DNA of 21,399 nt from a virus. The position numbers were made by a program, and so were the translations under genes. Positions 8,372 through 20,899 of the stretch are shown piece by piece. Numbering within the stretch: the first letter of the stretch is position 1; every line of letters starts with the position of its first letter. Under the pieces are notes generated by a model. The model was given only the letters and a program-made list of their open reading frames with translations. It did no database searches and was not told where the DNA came from. The DNA lies in IMG/VR virus record IMGVR_UViG_3300008267_000470, positions 1 through 21,399 of that record; one strand, given 5' to 3'.

Positions 8372-8782
8372 ATGCCTACTCAAACAATACGAGTCAACCC
8401 ATTAGACTTGCAAAAAAACATTGCAATTGGGGTATCTTTACCTTTTAGTGGACCTTCTGGTCCTTTTAATAAAACATATAGTACTAAAGATCAAACCAAA
8501 TCTAATTTGATTAATTTAGTTCTTACTAATAAAGGTGAAAGGGTATTTAATCCTGAATTTGGAGCAGATTTAAAAAGAGTATTATTTGAAGGAATAACAG
8601 AAAATATTAATGTAACTATACAAAGACTTATAGTAGAAAATGCTAGTATATTTGTACCAGAAATAAGCATTTCTGAAGTAGAAACAATACAAAATCCAGA
8701 TAATAATTCCTTACTTGTAACTATAAAATATAACTTGATAATATCAGGAACAGCAGATCAAATAACAGTAGAATTTATATAA
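8372..8782 (+). CDS. 25: Baseplate wedge subunit, gp25-like
   Basis: A 136-residue protein, matching the usual size of the gp25/W family (T4 gp25 is 132). GERVFNPEFGADLKRVLFEG (residues 55-74) is the hallmark of the family: turn, short helix and the Phe/Leu-rich segment that packs in the wedge core. Before it, DQTKSNLINLVLTNKGER is the usual lead-in helix, and the C-terminal half (ISISEVETIQNPDNNSLLVTIKYNLI) is the expected beta-sheet. In T4, gp25 with gp6 and gp53 forms the wedge core that starts sheath assembly. The gp6-like gene follows two bases later, as expected. Confidence 0.88.
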   Translation: MPTQTIRVNPLDLQKNIAIGVSLPFSGPSGPFNKTYSTKDQTKSNLINLVLTNKGERVFNPEFGADLKRVLFEGITENINVTIQRLIVENASIFVPEISISEVETIQNPDNNSLLVTIKYNLIISGTADQITVEFI

Positions 8783-8784
8783 AA

Positions 8785-10644
8785 ATGGCAACAAACAGAG
8801 TATCATATTTAAATAAAACTTTTAGTGATTTTAAGAATAATCTTATAAATTATGCTAAAACTTATTTCCCATCAACATATAATAATTTTTCAGATGCCAA
8901 TCCTGGGGCTTTATTTATTGATATGGCATCATATGTAGGAGATGTATCTTCATTCTATTTAGATACTCAAATTCAAGAAACTTTTCTATTATATGCTAAA
9001 GAAAAAGAAAATTTATTAGCCCTTTCTTATGCTTTAGGATATAATCCAAAAATATCGTACGCTTCCAATGTATTAATTGATATATACCAATTAATACCTA
9101 CTAAGGATAACCCTAACAACCCAGGAAATTTAATAATAGATCAAGATTATTATTTATTAGTACCTGAAAATACAATAATATCCTCAACAAGTACAGGAAC
9201 TAAGTTTTTGACTATAGAATCTGTAGATTTTAGTGATGAAAATAATAGAGAAGTAACTCTTGTTACTGATAGTAATTACTTTCTATTAAAAAAATCAGTT
9301 AAAGCAATCTCAGCAGAAATTAAATCTACTACATTAACTTTTAATGGTCCTGCTGAAAAATTTGCTATAAGAACTATAACTGATAATAATATACTTCAAA
9401 TATTAGATGTTACAGATGCTGAAGGAAATAAATGGTATGAAGTTCCTTATTTAGCCCAATCTACTATATTAGATAGAATTACTAATCCTAATTACATAAA
9501 TGGTACAGATGATGTTCCTTATTTAATTAATTATAAAAAAGTTGATCGTAGGTTTGTATCTAGATTTCTTTCTGATAATTCATTGCAAATAGAATTTGGA
9601 TCAGGAATAGGATATTCTTCTGATAACTCTATTATTCCTAATCCTGATACTATATCATTAGGTTTAATTCCTGGAGTTAGTAATTATACAAATAATTTTA
9701 ATAAAGCTTCTGTATTTTTTACCCAAGAATATGGTTTAGCTCCTAGCAGTAATTTAACAATAAGATATCTTGTTGGAGGAGGAGTACAATCTAATGTACC
9801 TGCTAATGATTTAACTAATATAAATAAATCAAGAATTATATTTAAAAATACTACAACTGTTCCTCCATTAAGTACTACAATATTAAATAGCGTAGCTTCA
9901 TCTAATCCTTCCCCAGCAGCTGGAGGTAGAGGTGGAGACGAAATTGAAGAAATTCGTAATAGTGCTTTATATTCATATCAATCTCAATTACGTGCTGTAA
10001 CTAAAGAAGACTATATGGTACGTGCTTTATCTCTTCCAACTGAATATGGCTCAATAGCTAAAGTATATGTTACACAAGATATGATTAGTACACCTTTACC
10101 TACCCCAACAGTAGCAACAATAGAAGAGCGTAACCCTCTATCATTGGATATGTATGTATTAGCTTATAACTCAGATAAAAAATTAACAACAGCTTCTACT
10201 ACTTTGAAGCAAAATTTAGCTCTTTACATTAACCAATATAGAATGGTTACTGATGCTGTTAATATTAAAAATGCTTTTTATATTAATATTGGTGTTAATT
10301 TTGACATAGTAGTTAAAAGTGGATTTAATAATAATGATGTTATTACTAATTGTATATTAATACTTAAAGATACGTTTAATATAAATAATTGGAACATTAA
10401 TCAACCTATAATAATATCAGATATTGTTGGTACTTTACTTCAAGTAAATGGTGTTCAATCTGTAACTAAATTTGAAATTATAAATAAACAAGATTCAACA
10501 GGAACAACATACTCTCAATATACATATGATATATCAGGAGCTACAAGACAGGGTAATATATATCCTTCTATAGACCCTAGTATATTTGAAGTACGTTATC
10601 CTGATACTGATATTCAAGGTAGAGTAGTACCATTTGTAATTTAA
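8785..10644 (+). CDS. 6: Baseplate wedge subunit, gp6-like (baseplate J)
   Basis: A 619-residue protein, close to T4 gp6 (660). The N-terminus is typical: SDFKNNLINYAKTYFPSTY, then ALFIDMASYVGDVSSFYLD (about 47-65), then FLLYAKEKENLLALSYALGY (about 71-92). The baseplate-J core appears around residues 385-435, with GGRGGDEIEEIRNSALY, then RAVTKEDYMVRALSL and SIAKVYVTQD. The C-terminal domain contains a second alpha/beta unit (MYVLAYNSDKKLTTASTTLKQNLALYI and FYINIGVNFDIVV). gp6 forms the continuous ring that joins the wedges of the baseplate and changes shape at sheath contraction. The gene is directly coupled to gp25. Confidence 0.88.
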   Translation: MATNRVSYLNKTFSDFKNNLINYAKTYFPSTYNNFSDANPGALFIDMASYVGDVSSFYLDTQIQETFLLYAKEKENLLALSYALGYNPKISYASNVLIDIYQLIPTKDNPNNPGNLIIDQDYYLLVPENTIISSTSTGTKFLTIESVDFSDENNREVTLVTDSNYFLLKKSVKAISAEIKSTTLTFNGPAEKFAIRTITDNNILQILDVTDAEGNKWYEVPYLAQSTILDRITNPNYINGTDDVPYLINYKKVDRRFVSRFLSDNSLQIEFGSGIGYSSDNSIIPNPDTISLGLIPGVSNYTNNFNKASVFFTQEYGLAPSSNLTIRYLVGGGVQSNVPANDLTNINKSRIIFKNTTTVPPLSTTILNSVASSNPSPAAGGRGGDEIEEIRNSALYSYQSQLRAVTKEDYMVRALSLPTEYGSIAKVYVTQDMISTPLPTPTVATIEERNPLSLDMYVLAYNSDKKLTTASTTLKQNLALYINQYRMVTDAVNIKNAFYINIGVNFDIVVKSGFNNNDVITNCILILKDTFNINNWNINQPIIISDIVGTLLQVNGVQSVTKFEIINKQDSTGTTYSQYTYDISGATRQGNIYPSIDPSIFEVRYPDTDIQGRVVPFVI

Positions 10645-12136: not shown

Positions 12137-15100
12137 ATGGCTGACAATATAAAAATAATAGGTAATATAGTTAATACTACAGTAATTAATCGTTATTCTG
12201 AAGAGGATACCAATTTATTATTTCCTGAAAAATTACAAGAAAATTTTGGTGGAAAGGATGACTATATTGAATATTACATTTATGACATAGGAGGAAATTT
12301 ATTAAGAACAAATTATAATTACTTAAATTATAAATTACCTCCTTCTACTGGATTAACTCCTTCTGTATCAACTCCTCCTAATACAACGGATAATATCCAA
12401 ACAACAGAAGTAGGAATAACATCAACTTTAGCTTCCCCAACAAGTTCAATATATCCTATAATTGAAATAGACCCAGTCCAAGATTTACAAAATGCTGAAT
12501 ATTCATCAGGAGAATTTTCTGTTAGATATAATTTATTTCAAAATATTTTATCTAATTATATTGATTCTGCTTTATTTGTTAAAGAAATATCTCAAGATAG
12601 AACTGAAGTTAGATTAGCTTCTGTTACTTTATCTGATGATGAAATAGAGCAAGTTACTTTATCTTTAATAGATGAAATAAATAATTCTCCATATTATGTC
12701 GAATATTTACTTAATTTTGGTAATAATGAACAATTTGTAGCGGTAAACATAGCACTAAATAAAGACCCAGAAGGAAACGAAGTATTATTTAAATTATACC
12801 AACCCTTACCTTTAAATATTCAAGAAAAACAGACGTTATGGATTGTTAAAGAAAAAGTAAGTCCCTATAATTTTGAAATTAATTTAGATAAATTAATAAC
12901 ACCACCACCTCCACCAACATTAAAAGGACCAAATTTTGATATTCCTATTGATACAAATCAAGGAACAATATCATCTACATATAGTAATTATTCAACTTTA
13001 GTTTCTGGTCTTCAATCATTACAAAGTTCTTCTTATCAAAAAATTTTAAATCTATTAAATTCACAGAGTGTACAAATAAATGTTAATTATACTGTAAGTG
13101 AATCTGCTGATTTTGGTAATTTTGTATTTTTTGGTTCTGCTTATAAGCGTGTAGAAAATTTTTATAATAAAGTTAAACAAATTGAAGGTTATAATAATTT
13201 TATAACAACATATACTCCTTTTGTTAATACAACAGCTAGTCTTCAAACTGAAATAAATTTATATTCTTCTAGTATTAATGAAATTATTTCTCAATTTGAT
13301 GGATTTGAAAGTTATTTATATTTCGAATCTAGCTCATATACTTGGCCTAAATCAGGATCAGCAAAACCTTTTGAGTTATTATCAACAATATCATCATCAG
13401 TTCAAACTTGGTATAATAATTTAACATCATCAGCAAAAATATATGATTTAAATAATTATAATAATCTAGAATATTCAATTCCTTCATATGTAAAAGAGGA
13501 TGAAACAAACCAACCATTCCTTACTTTTTTAAATATGGTTGGTCATTATTTTGATAATATATGGGTTTATATAAAATCTATTCCTGATATAAATTTAGCT
13601 AATAATAATCTAAATTATGGTGTATCTAAAGATTTGGTATATGAAAAATTAAAATCTTTAGGTCTTAAATTATATAATAGCCAAGCAGGAGAAAGTGTTG
13701 ATCAATTTTTAATAGGAGCAAATACAGGTAGTTCTGTTTGGGATAATAATTTTACTGTAACAGGCAGCTATTTAAATAATATTCCTCGTAAAGATTTAGT
13801 ATCGGAATTATACAAACGTATTTACCATAATTTACCTTACTTATTAAAAACAAAAGGTACTGTTACTGGTCTAGATGCTTTAATAACAGTATTTGGATTA
13901 TATACAGGTATTGATGGTGTTCAAATAGGTAATCAAGTATGGTCTGCTTTTAATTATCAAGGAACTACTTACCGAAATGGAGATCCAATTCTAGAAGCTC
14001 AGTCAGATGCTGATTGGGCAGCAGCTAATACTGCTCAAAGAGGAGCATGGTGTTATTATAGTGGTAGTTATGAATATGCTAAATATGGTAAATTATATAA
14101 TTGGTATGCAGTAAATGATTCTAGAGGATTTGCTCCTGAAGGTTGGCATATACCAACTATAACAGAATGGAGAATATTAACCAGTTCTTTAGGATTAACT
14201 CCAACAGAAATAACACTTAAATTAAGAGCATCTGGATCTAATTATTGGAATAATAATACTTTATCTACTAATCTAAGTGGATTAACATTAGTAGGAAATG
14301 GTACTAGAGACGCTAGTCAAGGAGGTACACCGGCTTCAACATGGACTAATAATAATCAAAGACTTAGAGTAGGAGCTGGATTATGGGCAGCATCGATAAA
14401 TAGATTTGTTGTTTTTAGTGGAAATACAGTCACTGGTATAACAATAGGAGCAGCATCAGCGGGGATAGGTCACGCTGTTCGCTTTGTAAAAGATAATCCA
14501 AATACTTACGATGATACAGATAATTTATTGAATATTCGAGAATTTGGAGGTGCATTAAAATCAAATTACACTAAAGGGTATAATAGTAATAAAGTAAGGG
14601 TTATTGAAAATTCTATTGAACCGGGAGTAATTGTAAGTTCTTTATCTCCAATAATGAGTTTACAAACATACCCTACTGCGTCTTCTCAATTCAGAGACAG
14701 TGATATGAATTATATAGATATTTCATTTTCACCACAAACTCAATTGGATGCTCATATTTCTAGATCTATTAGCACTATTTCACCCACATGGGATATAGAT
14801 ACCTATATAGGTGATCCTAGGCAACAATATTTAAATTCTTATCCTGATTTAGATTTTCAACGTAGTTTTTACCAATTTAGAGGAACTGGAGCTACTAGAA
14901 GATACACAGCTAGCCTATTAGATTATAATAGATATACAAGATTAGTAGAATTTTTTGATAATTCTTTATTTAAAATGCTTAGTGATTTTGTTCCTGAAAG
15001 GACAAGTTTATCAACAGGTGTTACATTTAATTCTCCTATCTTAGAAAGAAATAAAGTAGCTTATGCTAATCCAACTAACACTATTTCTCAAAGTGTACCT

Positions 15101-17515
15101 ACAGCTCAATATAATTCAACATCTTCTTTATCTACGACATATGGTACATTCTACACAGCATTATCGTCATCTAATAACACTATGGGGTGGTATGATGGTG
15201 AATTAAGTGGAAGTACTGTTGATATTAATCAATATTTTGAAGACAATTATAATCCATATTTACAAGTAACAGGAACGATAAATAAAAATGATTTTAATCA
15301 TTCTGATTGGAATATATTACTAAATAATGTTTCACAAAGTGTAACGTCCACCACTAGACAACGTATTGAATATATTTGGGGAACTACAGGTAGTCTTACC
15401 CGCTCTGCAGAATTACAAGATTCTTATTTATCATTACAATCTTATAATAATTCTCGTTATAATGGAACTAAATTAACTAGTTTATATATTAATACGTATA
15501 CTAGTGCATCATATACTGGATCAGACGGTCTTACTATTGTAGAAGGAGATAATTCATTTGGTAAAACAGCTGTAATAGATAGATATGTTCGTCGAATAGG
15601 ATTATTTACTCAAATAGAAAGTAGTTCATTTTTATTAAATAGAAATAATGTTGCTTTAAAATATCTTGTAGATGAATTTGGAGGATTAACTGAATTAAAC
15701 CTTATTAATAATAACTGGGAAGATGTTCAGAGAACATTTGTAATGAGTGGAACAGGATCTGTATCTTTATTTGATACTAAGCAATATAGTAATCAAGTAT
15801 CAACTAATGGAGATAAAATAATATTTGATAGTGGGTATTCATACTTTCCAGTTTTTTATTATTCAACAGAATCAAAAGGACCAGACCCAAAGAGATATTT
15901 CGATTCAGTTATACCTCAACAAGACCAATTTACTGAAGCAAGGATGTTAGTTCCTCTTAATAGTAATAATCGTATTATTGGATCTATAAATCCTACCTCA
16001 GGAATAGGAGTACCAAATACTGGTCCTAATGGAGCTCCTTATTTTACAACAGCTTCTTTTGGAACTAAATTTGTTACTAATCTTTTTAGAAATATAGTTC
16101 AAGGAAGTGGTTTTACAATAGGAGGAGCAGATAATTCAACCTCAACCCTTCCTTATACCAATTCTCCTACATATCTCATACCTCAGGGAGGTCAATATAA
16201 AATAAATGTTAAATTAAATGTAGAAGTATACTCAGATGGAACTAATTTTGGAACTACAACATTTCAAGCAGGATTATATAGATCACGAAATAATATTGAA
16301 ACTTTAGTTGAAGGAACCTCTCTTAATACTAAAAGTGCTATATATAGTAATATTTCTTTCTCAACTGATCCAAATTCATCACCTGGTGTATTATATTTAA
16401 ATGCTGGGGTTGCTTTCTCCCGTCCTGATCCATTTGGAAATCCTGTATTTCCCGAACCATACCCCAATGGATTTACATGGCAACCTTTCTCTTCAATAAC
16501 ATACCCTGCTCCAGTAACTATTGGAGGACAACAAACAAGCATTATTTATAAATATGTTATTTCATCAACATCATCTCCTAGACTTCAATGGTCAAATCTT
16601 AATTATTTAACTGGAATAAATGGTACTTATTATTCAATATATCCTTCTCTTTTCTTTGATGGCGGTCTTAGAATAGATCAAACTAATTTTACTGATCCTG
16701 ATGGAAGTTGGATATATGACTTTGTACCTCCGTCTTCTCCAACTCCTTATCCTTTATATACTAGTACTAATGCTGAAAATGTCCCTAAAGGAGTTATAGC
16801 ACTAGATATGAGTATTGCCCCACCAACTCCTGTAGAATTTAATCAAGGTGATAAAATCATATATAAACTCAGCATATCTAATAATACCAACCCAGCAGCT
16901 ATAGCTTATATACCCACAGCATCAGCCATTTATCCTCAACAATTTGTAATATCTACTTTAGATACTTCATTAGGAAGTTATCCTTTTACAATAGCTAATC
17001 CTTATTTTATATCTGCTAGTAGTACTTCATCTTTAGAATTCAATAATGGTTTATCTAACTTTTTTGGAGGAAACTATACATTTTTACCAACATTTGCAAC
17101 AGGGTCTACAGTTTATACAAGTAGTTTATATGACAAATATGGAGATATAGATTATCCTTTTAATATATCAGCAGGAGATATATTTTTAGTAGTAGACGAT
17201 AATGGTAGAACATTTGAGTCAGCTATAAAAAATATTACTAAAAGAAACGATGATATTATAGAAATAGAACTACTTGAAAAAATGTCAGATATATTAAGAC
17301 AACAAATCACCCAACTTAAAACATTAGAACTTTTATTTTTAACTAAAAGAAAAGACGAAACAAATGTAATATTAAGATTTAAGAAAAGATTTGGTAAAAC
17401 ATCTTATGGTTTTTTAATACCTGAAAATTTAGCTCCTGATGTATTAGATAATATTGATACTATTACTAGGCAAGTAAAACAAAAACTCTTATCTGATCAA
17501 CAAAGCTCAACATAA
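12137..17515 (+). CDS. Giant baseplate/tail protein (1792 aa) with inserted FISUMP domain
   Basis: N-terminal part (1-590): beta-rich region with DPVQDLQNAEYSSGEFSVRY (about 115-135), then long helical and Ser-rich stretches, ending in DLVSELYKRIYHNLPYLLKTKGT and GLDALITVFGLYTG. Residues 597-786 are a FISUMP/Fib_succ_major domain (C-type-lectin-like): IGNQVWSAFNYQG, AKYGKLYNWYAV, GFAPEGWHIPTITEWRIL, RASGSNYW, GLWAAS, HAVRFVKD. The host fold resumes at NLLNIREFGG (796), followed by MNYIDISFSPQTQLD. Later blocks include RYNGTKLTSLYINTYT, FGKTAVIDRYVRRIGLFTQI and DGDKIIFDSGYSYFP-like repeats known from marine T4-like phages. The C-terminus is helical and charged. The position suggests a gp7-like wedge role, though T4 gp7 is only 1032 residues. 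The inserted domain probably binds a cell-surface ligand. Confidence 0.7.
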   Translation: MADNIKIIGNIVNTTVINRYSEEDTNLLFPEKLQENFGGKDDYIEYYIYDIGGNLLRTNYNYLNYKLPPSTGLTPSVSTPPNTTDNIQTTEVGITSTLASPTSSIYPIIEIDPVQDLQNAEYSSGEFSVRYNLFQNILSNYIDSALFVKEISQDRTEVRLASVTLSDDEIEQVTLSLIDEINNSPYYVEYLLNFGNNEQFVAVNIALNKDPEGNEVLFKLYQPLPLNIQEKQTLWIVKEKVSPYNFEINLDKLITPPPPPTLKGPNFDIPIDTNQGTISSTYSNYSTLVSGLQSLQSSSYQKILNLLNSQSVQINVNYTVSESADFGNFVFFGSAYKRVENFYNKVKQIEGYNNFITTYTPFVNTTASLQTEINLYSSSINEIISQFDGFESYLYFESSSYTWPKSGSAKPFELLSTISSSVQTWYNNLTSSAKIYDLNNYNNLEYSIPSYVKEDETNQPFLTFLNMVGHYFDNIWVYIKSIPDINLANNNLNYGVSKDLVYEKLKSLGLKLYNSQAGESVDQFLIGANTGSSVWDNNFTVTGSYLNNIPRKDLVSELYKRIYHNLPYLLKTKGTVTGLDALITVFGLYTGIDGVQIGNQVWSAFNYQGTTYRNGDPILEAQSDADWAAANTAQRGAWCYYSGSYEYAKYGKLYNWYAVNDSRGFAPEGWHIPTITEWRILTSSLGLTPTEITLKLRASGSNYWNNNTLSTNLSGLTLVGNGTRDASQGGTPASTWTNNNQRLRVGAGLWAASINRFVVFSGNTVTGITIGAASAGIGHAVRFVKDNPNTYDDTDNLLNIREFGGALKSNYTKGYNSNKVRVIENSIEPGVIVSSLSPIMSLQTYPTASSQFRDSDMNYIDISFSPQTQLDAHISRSISTISPTWDIDTYIGDPRQQYLNSYPDLDFQRSFYQFRGTGATRRYTASLLDYNRYTRLVEFFDNSLFKMLSDFVPERTSLSTGVTFNSPILERNKVAYANPTNTISQSVPTAQYNSTSSLSTTYGTFYTALSSSNNTMGWYDGELSGSTVDINQYFEDNYNPYLQVTGTINKNDFNHSDWNILLNNVSQSVTSTTRQRIEYIWGTTGSLTRSAELQDSYLSLQSYNNSRYNGTKLTSLYINTYTSASYTGSDGLTIVEGDNSFGKTAVIDRYVRRIGLFTQIESSSFLLNRNNVALKYLVDEFGGLTELNLINNNWEDVQRTFVMSGTGSVSLFDTKQYSNQVSTNGDKIIFDSGYSYFPVFYYSTESKGPDPKRYFDSVIPQQDQFTEARMLVPLNSNNRIIGSINPTSGIGVPNTGPNGAPYFTTASFGTKFVTNLFRNIVQGSGFTIGGADNSTSTLPYTNSPTYLIPQGGQYKINVKLNVEVYSDGTNFGTTTFQAGLYRSRNNIETLVEGTSLNTKSAIYSNISFSTDPNSSPGVLYLNAGVAFSRPDPFGNPVFPEPYPNGFTWQPFSSITYPAPVTIGGQQTSIIYKYVISSTSSPRLQWSNLNYLTGINGTYYSIYPSLFFDGGLRIDQTNFTDPDGSWIYDFVPPSSPTPYPLYTSTNAENVPKGVIALDMSIAPPTPVEFNQGDKIIYKLSISNNTNPAAIAYIPTASAIYPQQFVISTLDTSLGSYPFTIANPYFISASSTSSLEFNNGLSNFFGGNYTFLPTFATGSTVYTSSLYDKYGDIDYPFNISAGDIFLVVDDNGRTFESAIKNITKRNDDIIEIELLEKMSDILRQQITQLKTLELLFLTKRKDETNVILRFKKRFGKTSYGFLIPENLAPDVLDNIDTITRQVKQKLLSDQQSST
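13925..14494 (+). other. FISUMP (Fib_succ_major) domain insertion inside the giant protein
   Basis: About 190 codons, residues 597-786. The order of motifs is that of the family: IGNQxW start, AKYGKLYNWYA, PEGWHIPTxxEW, a short GLTLVGNGTRD stretch, a W-A-A-S box and a closing HAVRFVKD. Base composition is similar to the flanks, so the insertion is not obviously recent. Confidence 0.8.
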
Positions 17516-18248: not shown

Positions 18249-19247
18249 ATGTCATTTTCAAGATATAATACAGAAGATTCAGTAATAAGCTCAGAAACCG
18301 TAGTACGTGGGATGTGGACAGGGGATAGTTATACTTTAAATAACTTTGTTACACAAAGTTCTATTTTAGAATCTTATGTAGATGTATATAATTTAGCTAT
18401 CTCTAACCCTAGTACAGTAGTTCAATTTAGCGTAGAATATGGTCACATAGCTGGATCCGGATCTGTAGCTTATAATTCGGCTGTTTCTGGTTCTTCTCCT
18501 TCTCGTGCTGTATATGGTAAATACAGAAATTTAATTTATGGTGATGAAAATACTAATTTTAGCTTTGATGGAGGAGCAACAACAGCACAACAAATATATG
18601 TAATTAATATTAGTAGGGATAGATATAAACAATCAATCCAACCTGGTTCTCTTAATTTAACTTTAGCAAGTGCTAGTAGTCCTACTTCTGTCAATACTAT
18701 TAGATTAACAGATGATAGTAATACAACTAGTTTAACTCGCTTTATAGGATCCAATAGAGTATTTTATATAATTAGTGGAAGTAACGGTAATGCTTATTCA
18801 AGTAGTGCAGCTGTACTTTCAACATATTATGGTATGATGTTCCCTGATTTAGGAATTATAGTATTAGATGCATCAGGATCTTTACGTCCATTTATATCAT
18901 CTTCAAATGTAGCTTCTGTAACTTCTCCTGTATATAATAACGCAGGATTTGTTAGATCTATGATATGGGGAAATAATTTTCAACTTAGATCATCTGAAGT
19001 AGTATCATCACGTTATTTCTTTACGCGTATTAAAAACAGTGAATATAATTATACTACAAATCCATCTGTTATAGATGCTAATGGTAATTTATTATATACT
19101 ACATTAATTAATAGTCCTCAAACATTTGTCACTACAGTAGGGATGTATAATGACAATAATGAATTATTAGCTGTAGCTAAATTATCAAAACCACTTACTA
19201 AAGACTTTACAAAAGAAGCCTTAATTAGAATCAAATTAGATTATTAA
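18249..19247 (+). CDS. Structural tail protein A of a tandem paralogous pair (332 aa)
   Basis: A Ser/Thr/Asn-rich beta protein starting MSFSRYNTEDSVISSETVVRG. Landmarks shared in order with the next gene are RDRYKQSIQPGSLNLTL (about 123-140), FYIIS, a hydrophobic FPDLGIIVLDA strand (about 198-208), YFFTRIKNSEYNYTTNPSVI (about 256-275) and the end TTVGMYNDNNELLAVAKLSKPL. The pair therefore comes from a duplication. These proteins form part of the tail tip or baseplate periphery in relatives, as far as I recall. No catalytic motif is seen. It is preceded by an A/T-rich leader without a Shine-Dalgarno sequence and ends three bases before its paralogue. Confidence 0.6.
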   Translation: MSFSRYNTEDSVISSETVVRGMWTGDSYTLNNFVTQSSILESYVDVYNLAISNPSTVVQFSVEYGHIAGSGSVAYNSAVSGSSPSRAVYGKYRNLIYGDENTNFSFDGGATTAQQIYVINISRDRYKQSIQPGSLNLTLASASSPTSVNTIRLTDDSNTTSLTRFIGSNRVFYIISGSNGNAYSSSAAVLSTYYGMMFPDLGIIVLDASGSLRPFISSSNVASVTSPVYNNAGFVRSMIWGNNFQLRSSEVVSSRYFFTRIKNSEYNYTTNPSVIDANGNLLYTTLINSPQTFVTTVGMYNDNNELLAVAKLSKPLTKDFTKEALIRIKLDY

Positions 19248-19250
19248 TGC

Positions 19251-20450
19251 ATGTCATCATTCAAAAGATTAAACAAGGCGGACGTTACGACAACTCTATA
19301 TGCAGCTAATAGACTGTGGAATATAGCATATACTAATGTTACTCTTAACCAAAATGCCTTCTATTATACAGGTTCTAATGTTACTTTTAGTATAAATGAA
19401 ACACAAAATAATGGTCAATATCCATCATTAATTTATGATTTTGTAAATCATTTATTTTATCAATCATATACTGGTAGTTTAAATACAGGTTCTTTAATGT
19501 TTAATACAAATACATTAGAATCTGCATCTCAACAACGTCCTACATCTTCTTATTTTAATTATAATTCTAATCCTTTATTAATTAAACAATTTCCTTCTGG
19601 AGCGGGGCAATCCATAGGAGTAGGTGTTATAAATCAAGATTTATATGGCTCTAAAATATTACCAAATAGTTTTCAAATAAGTGCATCCTCTCTTAATTCT
19701 GGTGTCCCTGATATTCTTATTAAAGATGATGGATACGGTAATTTATACGATGTAGCTCAAGCTCAATCTTTACCAATAGCTTTAAATTATGTTACGTTAG
19801 ATTATTTTGAAAATAATGGAGTTATAGGATCAGGAATATATTTTGTTGGAAATATATTTTATGCTCACGGAATAGCAGTTATTACTAATCCTGATTATCA
19901 AAGAGTTTTAAGTATAAATTCTTGTAATACTTTTACTGTTACTCCACTTATAACTTCTGATATTATTTATACAGATTGCCTAGGAATCAATAGACTTATA
20001 GCTAATACATTAACTACTCAAACAATATGCGCAATCTCAGGTACAATAGTTTTTGATAAGGGTTTTGGAAATATATCTACTCCTGGAATTCTTTGTAATC
20101 CACCTAGAACGTATACTTTTCAGAATGAGCATAGAATATATGAAAATGAAGTACGTTGTATAGTTAAAGAAAGTGATTTCAATTTATCATATAATCCTTC
20201 TCTATTAAAGTATGGAGGTCAAACAATAGTACCTATATCAGGAAGCGCTAGTAATGGTTATACTACAACAGGATCATTTGATAATAGTACTGTTAAAGAT
20301 TTTGCTACGGCCTCATTTTTCCAACCTTACGCAACAACAATAGGTTTGTATAATGATAACAATGATCTATTAATGGTAGCTAAACTAGCTAAACCAATAA
20401 TGTTATCTCCAGACACAGATATGACATTTATTGTTAAGTATGATCTTTAA
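19251..20450 (+). CDS. Structural tail protein B of the pair, with a four-Cys insert (399 aa)
   Basis: A paralogue of the 18249 product: NQDLYGSKILPNSFQIS (about 128-144), IYFVGNIFYAHGIAVITNPDY (about 196-216), EVRCIVKESDFNLSYNPSLL (about 300-319) and ATTIGLYNDNNDLLMVAKLAKPI near the end match its landmarks. Between the second and third lies an extra block, residues 222-285, with Cys225, Cys243 (YTDC), Cys260 (TICAISGTI) and Cys282 (GILC). This pattern of YTDCxG followed by ICA-x-GT and G-x-x-C recalls a small module seen in Bacteroidota phage tail proteins; disulfides are unlikely before virion release, so its role is unclear. An ATATTTAT motif begins on its last stop base. Confidence 0.6.
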   Translation: MSSFKRLNKADVTTTLYAANRLWNIAYTNVTLNQNAFYYTGSNVTFSINETQNNGQYPSLIYDFVNHLFYQSYTGSLNTGSLMFNTNTLESASQQRPTSSYFNYNSNPLLIKQFPSGAGQSIGVGVINQDLYGSKILPNSFQISASSLNSGVPDILIKDDGYGNLYDVAQAQSLPIALNYVTLDYFENNGVIGSGIYFVGNIFYAHGIAVITNPDYQRVLSINSCNTFTVTPLITSDIIYTDCLGINRLIANTLTTQTICAISGTIVFDKGFGNISTPGILCNPPRTYTFQNEHRIYENEVRCIVKESDFNLSYNPSLLKYGGQTIVPISGSASNGYTTTGSFDNSTVKDFATASFFQPYATTIGLYNDNNDLLMVAKLAKPIMLSPDTDMTFIVKYDL

Positions 20451-20470: not shown

Positions 20471-20899
20471 ATGATAAAATGGAATTATTGGGATAATTAC
20501 AATCCCGAAGATTATTTAGGTTTTGTTTATAAAATTACCAATCTCACAAACGGTAAATTTTACATTGGTAAAAAATTCTTTTGGTACAACAAAAAGAAAA
20601 AACTCACCAAAAAACAATTAGCTGAACAAACTGGACCTGGTCGCAAACCAACTACTGAAATAGTTAAAGTAGAAAGCGATTGGAAAACATATTGGGGTTC
20701 ATCTAAAGAATTACTTAAGGACATTAAAGAATTAGGTGAGGATCATTTTGAATGCATTATACTCAAATTATGTAAGAATAAAAAACAACTTACATACTTT
20801 GAAATGCATTACCAGTGTACCAATGAATGTTTAGTTAGTCCTTCACTAACATACAACGATAATATACTAGGTAAGTTTTTTGGTAAAGACTTGGTATAG
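20471..20899 (+). CDS. GIY-YIG endonuclease-like protein (142 aa)
   Basis: GFVYKITNLTNGKFYIGKKFFW (residues 17-38) carries both signature strands of the GIY-YIG nuclease fold: GFVY for GIY and FYIG for YIG, with K34/K35 following. YWGSSKELLKDIKELG (74-89) and FECIILKLCKNKKQLTYFEMHY (93-114) match the later helices; E111 is the candidate metal-binding glutamate. A basic insertion (40-62, KKKKLTKKQL to GPGRKP) precedes them. Relatives in T4-like phages are free-standing nucleases, some of them homing enzymes, and others are uncharacterised, so DNA cleavage is likely but the target is unknown. It is a separate small unit between the tail genes and the primase. Confidence 0.8.
   Translation: MIKWNYWDNYNPEDYLGFVYKITNLTNGKFYIGKKFFWYNKKKKLTKKQLAEQTGPGRKPTTEIVKVESDWKTYWGSSKELLKDIKELGEDHFECIILKLCKNKKQLTYFEMHYQCTNECLVSPSLTYNDNILGKFFGKDLV

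Follow-up and report, generated by a model that had tools for sequence, protein, structure and literature searches.

A FISUMP domain inserted in an internal loop of a giant, probably baseplate wedge, phage protein

The FISUMP domain (Fib_succ_major, PF09603) is found inside a very long protein encoded in the baseplate region of a viral contig. The whole stretch of DNA analysed, 21,399 nucleotides, is called the window here. The place of this domain raises two questions, whether it is an integral part of the giant protein or an insert in one of its loops, and what it might do there. An initial annotation made from the sequence alone had described it as spliced into a conserved loop of a tail protein, and had proposed a part in receptor recognition and host range.

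Identity, borders and predicted fold of the domain

The giant protein and the parts of it that are discussed first are the following.
12137..17515, plus strand: giant baseplate-region protein, probable wedge subunit with the insert, an open reading frame of 1792 amino acids
13838..13900, plus strand: conserved 5' flank, the YLLKTKGTVTGLDALITVFGL region, which resembles the KGT...G helix found in wedge proteins of the P2 gpI type
13898..14527, plus strand: whole inserted segment, residues 588–797, replacing the bare loop of homologues (from homologue comparison)
13919..14491, plus strand: FISUMP or Fib_succ_major domain, residues 595–785 (PF09603, TIGR02145, and a model with C-type-lectin-fold matches)
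14522..14551, plus strand: conserved 3' flank NLLNIREFGG

PF09603 is the only Pfam family found in the giant protein, it matches residues 595–785 over the full length of the profile (positions 1–187 of 187, E 5.5e-26, 92.4 bits against a cut-off of 33.9). NCBIfam also has a model for this domain, TIGR02145 ('FISUMP domain-containing protein'), which hits residues 595–785 as well (E 3e-16, 60.6 against 41.65 bits), and both matches lie above the curated cut-offs. The domain had earlier been placed at 13925–14494, a shift of a residue or two, and the two segments named as its flanks, GLDALITVFGL (starting at 13868) and NLLNIREFGG, are both present. The insert lies between FG587 and L798 and adds about 205 residues net. 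Its GC3 is 10.0, against 8.0 and 10.8 in the flanks, and this comparison of codon third positions between insert and flanks gives no sign of a recent foreign origin. Most FISUMP copies found in phages are C-terminal (58 of 77 distinct copies), which is the usual place of binding tips, whereas the window copy is in an internal loop.

An AlphaFold2 model of the domain fragment has a mean pLDDT of 75, falling below 50 at fragment residues 140–166, the variable part. Most matches listed for this model belong to the C-type-lectin fold class. They include sulfoxide-synthase enzymes of the EgtB/SenA type, the C-terminal domain of Legionella Lcl (8q4e, Z 6.7, rmsd 2.7 over 94 residues), the variable protein TaqVP of a diversity-generating retroelement (DGR; 5vf4, Z 5.7) and many C-type lectins (Z 4–5), all of which we take to share the C-type-lectin fold. 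The matches of the predicted model agree with the earlier description of the domain as C-type-lectin-like, at modest Z scores (at most 7.2, all below 8), and the domain probably folds like a C-type lectin. A sequence search against solved structures found no genuine relative. The calcium-dependent sugar-binding motif of canonical C-type lectins is missing from many members of the fold class, and a fold match alone carries no functional proof.

The loop in homologues and its history

Homologues of the giant protein were found at 80 loci in a search of viral contigs. In most homologues the motif GLxxLxxxFG is followed by five residues and then by LNVKE[FY]GG, as in GLQTLISTFG-ITGSI-LNVKEYGG, so the two flanks are nearly contiguous in relatives, as the initial annotation had stated. 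The initial annotation had proposed an alignment with homologues lacking the insert, and in one of 83 well-covered rows (75 of them different) 80 have a bare or short loop. It is four residues long in 62 rows and 25–32 residues long in 18; the domain is therefore an insert and not an integral part of the giant protein. One further row (L018) has an unrelated, non-FISUMP loop of 86 residues, and the remaining two, the window and L002, have about 210–220 residues with FISUMP. Full-length family matches at a site where most relatives have a bare loop bear out the description of a domain spliced into this protein. As most relatives live without FISUMP, the domain is not essential in the giant family.

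L002 is an independent contig (65% identity over the best segment) with an insertion point identical to that of the window. Since it carries the same insert at the same place, an assembly join or artefact in the window is ruled out.

FISUMP is present in another loop of the giant homologue in three members of a distant branch (L083, L163 and L164, 31–32% identity). This second loop is just ahead of IDDYIGDPR (window residues about 876–883), and relatives of the three have no FISUMP there. Because the two insertions are at different sites and most members of each branch have bare loops, FISUMP was inserted in this protein family at least twice. Resolution in the FISUMP domain tree is too low to tell if the loop-A and loop-B copies come from one source (AU p 0.58).

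Trees of the core of the protein, built after removal of the loop, require at least nine changes of loop state among the 83 rows, and at least seven in a 23-row tree of the window clade and its nearest outgroups. In the domain tree the FISUMP domains of the window and L002 are sisters (support 99), but their cores are not, L002 grouping with L018, L020 and L021 at 99/99. Forcing the two cores together is marginally rejected (AU p 0.04). Sister domains on cores that are not sisters fit a loop that has been exchanged, or lost repeatedly.

Other segments of the family also vary. The giant homologues of L167 and L171 contain a module of about 60 residues. A homologue on a contig of a Winogradskyella metagenome-assembled genome (MAG; L186:8001-11009) has inserts of 187 and 96 residues right behind the EFGG motif, the longer of which has no Pfam match. 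Further variable segments are found near residues 1045 and 1125.

Gene context and identity of the giant protein

Two genes upstream of the giant gene encode proteins related to baseplate wedge proteins.
8372..8782, plus strand: gp25-like baseplate wedge protein, context (PF04965, E 6.8e-8; phrog_261, E 5.6e-18)
8785..10644, plus strand: gp6/J-like baseplate wedge protein, context (phrog_219, E 4.9e-13)

The gp25-like gene (8372) is followed by the gp6-like gene (8785), two further genes and the giant gene, which matches the order gp25, gp6/J, gpI. The block around the giant gene is syntenic with Flavobacterium phage immuto, in whose annotation the homologues of gp25 and gp6 are listed as baseplate proteins and that of the giant protein as hypothetical. 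The closest named phage relatives have Flavobacterium hosts, more distant ones have Microcystis hosts, and a genome-bin relative of the giant protein is a Winogradskyella MAG. A host from the Bacteroidota is likely, because named relatives infect Flavobacterium and because of the Winogradskyella relative.

Outside the insert the giant protein has no family match in Pfam or PHROGs, and neither database recognises it as Tail_P2_I or gp7. The Pfam profile Tail_P2_I does not match the giant protein of the window at E up to 0.1, nor any of 16 homologues at E up to 1, and a scan with P2 gpI returned near-identical copies only. T4 gp7 was set aside as a direct relative, the direct comparison giving nothing convincing. 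A profile of bare-loop homologues was aligned with five Tail_P2_I-type proteins from genomes of one phylum. The hhalign score was 23.2 (p 0.017), which none of 150 column shuffles reached (best shuffle 22.5). In this alignment KTKGT..GL..L..FG is paired with HKGT.GAI...V..LG and LNVKE with INVTE, and the insertion point falls between them. The giant protein is like Tail_P2_I, P2 gpI and T4 gp7 in gene order after gp25 and gp6, and may share with them a KGT...G...[IV].E motif on either side of the insertion point, but it is ten times longer than P2 gpI and is not recognised by Pfam, and the likeness of the profiles is only suggestive. Gene order and the weak P2 gpI profile match favour the earlier description of a wedge-region protein, against which stands the failure of Pfam to recognise Tail_P2_I or gp7. 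We consider it probable that this protein is a subunit of the gp7/gpI type, the third of the baseplate wedge.

If the profile likeness is right, the insert would be in the third wedge subunit, which is where receptor-binding proteins are attached in the baseplates that have been studied (PMC10811340). A model of residues 1–1010 of the giant protein is too poor (mean pLDDT 54) to bear on exposure of the loop, and a PDB search with this model gave small barrel matches only.

From about residue 1540 on (approximately 16757–17515), the giant protein has a C-terminal part that is fused to the rest in 28 relatives. Fourteen relatives split it off (L018, L019, L020, L037, L045, L074 and others), and in most of these it is a separate gene of about 240 residues. 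Four contigs (L007, L012, L023 and L083) have an extra gene of 277–922 amino acids between the giant gene and the homologue of g17566, this gene is missing from the window. The adjacent genes at 18249–19247 and 19251–20450 have no known-family match, they look like paralogues that share a C-terminal motif (63 nt, 78% identical). A cysteine-bearing motif, Y..C.G, was seen by eye in the second of these genes and in the giant-loop inserts of relatives (L018, L019, L167 and L171), and may be another mobile module. Two small genes, at 1576–2076 and 20471–20896, look by eye like GIY-YIG-type nucleases; the latter has a weak match to a group I intron endonuclease, the sole such match of the two.

Variability of the domain and its possible role

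The part of the domain that varies most is the following.
14384..14458, plus strand: hypervariable stretch of the domain (WAASINRFVVFSGNTVTGITIGAAS), from the window compared with L002 and a 50-row domain alignment

Over the domain and its flanks, 123 of 226 residues are identical between the window and L002, in this stretch there are two identities in 25 aligned columns (permutation p 5e-5). The same stretch has the top entropy in an alignment of 50 phage FISUMP domains, in which the front and end motifs are conserved and the variable stretch comes ahead of a final [SA]VR.

A second, unrelated family of virion-like proteins (L347–L355) has FISUMP near the N-terminus with constant flanks on both sides. 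In five of these (L347 and L349–L352, a protein of 1.4 kaa) the N-terminal FISUMP has a hypervariable last third, which is 22–39% identical in nine of ten pairs (69% in the closest pair) and differs in length as well as in sequence. The front of the domain is about 79% or more identical, and the remainder of the protein about 70% or more. L353 has two tandem FISUMP copies, while in L354 the domain is replaced by a different sequence that lacks FISUMP. This pattern is as would be expected of an exchangeable ligand-binding domain.

FISUMP domains are known DGR targets (PMC4159848, PMC8143477), and in Bacteroides uniformis phages Fib_succ_major proteins are variable targets of this kind (PMC8143477). 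The window domain is like the C-type-lectin-fold proteins of DGRs (Mtd of BPP-1, TvpA, TaqVP and the Fib_succ_major proteins of B. uniformis phages) in its predicted fold and its variable last third, but it is embedded in a wedge-like protein and not at a fibre tip. A retroelement elsewhere in the genome could be rewriting the last third, the variable stretch is at the expected place and the window is only a 21 kb fragment. No reverse transcriptase was found in 38 records, the window and 37 related ones (several of 110–309 kb, many of them fragments), and this holds for 14 giant-family records, 15 other FISUMP-bearing records and the unrelated-family records alike. No template repeat of the variable stretch is among the largest repeat families listed for the window, and the length differences in the unrelated family are unlike adenine-only substitution. 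Of the earlier suggestion of a DGR link, the status of the family as a known target stands, while neither enzyme nor template was found for the window domain; we regard an active retroelement as very improbable.

The variable last third also bears on a structural role, in which the domain would be an attachment point for a fibre, spike or chaperone, or would fill a contact between wedges. Receptor-binding proteins usually dock at the third wedge subunit (PMC10811340), but a docking interface should be conserved, yet the last third is hypervariable, and FISUMP also occurs in unrelated proteins, mostly at the C-terminus. We give this role a small probability.

It is also conceivable that the domain is an accessory decoration, a weak, non-specific adhesion or stabilising module, with host range set by separate fibres. 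Most relatives lack FISUMP, phage surface proteins are often decorated with Ig-like domains (PMC9853417), and in one related Flavobacterium phage separate tail-fibre and tail-spike genes are found downstream of the same block. The window, a 21 kb fragment, does not include these genes, they could be elsewhere in its genome. Variation concentrated in one stretch of the domain is more like a specific ligand site than a passive decoration. We think a decoration unlikely, though it keeps a real share of the probability.

The reading that we prefer, and hold to be moderately probable, is that the domain is an exchangeable surface-binding module on the baseplate wedge. We favour it because the last third is hypervariable, other domains replace FISUMP, and receptor-binding proteins attach at the third wedge subunit. 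The loop between the KGT...FG helix and the next strand of the giant protein would accept domains, and the FISUMP domain in it would stand out from the baseplate. Its variable last third would bind a ligand on the host surface, probably a cell-surface glycan or protein of Bacteroidota type, and this binding would help adsorption, with or without a contribution from tail fibres. Through recombination the module would be passed between phages, lost, or replaced by another. The sequence comparisons directly show the insert, its family, the bare homologues, the repeated changes of the loop and the concentrated variability, while the fold is predicted. Surface exposure, receptor recognition and a role in host range, as the initial annotation had proposed, are plausible.

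Domain shuffling has been described for receptor-binding and neck passage proteins of phages (Smug et al. 2023, PMC10684548). As in the giant protein, binding domains are exchanged there on a conserved scaffold, but the giant protein, which is wedge-like, has its exchanges in internal loops and not at the C-terminal end. FISUMP itself, C-type-lectin-fold binders of phages and the shuffling of tail proteins were already known (PMC4159848, PMC8143477, PMC10743442, PMC10684548). What is new is that such domains recur in the internal loops of a protein that is wedge-like; no description of this was found in the literature covered, which leaves out most subscription journals.

The widest form of this proposal is that across an entire family of large contractile-tailed phages the internal loops of the wedge protein are standing sockets for binding domains that can be interchanged, FISUMP and other modules, and that the baseplate, not the fibres, sets host range. 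This is tentative, and we think it rather doubtful. Should the loop be such a socket, it would be a host-range locus that annotation has overlooked, since the giant protein has no Pfam or PHROG match apart from the insert and its homologues in the annotated relatives examined are labelled hypothetical. Differences in host surface recognition among uncultured phages could then be predicted directly, and the loop would be a place where a baseplate protein naturally tolerates insertions.
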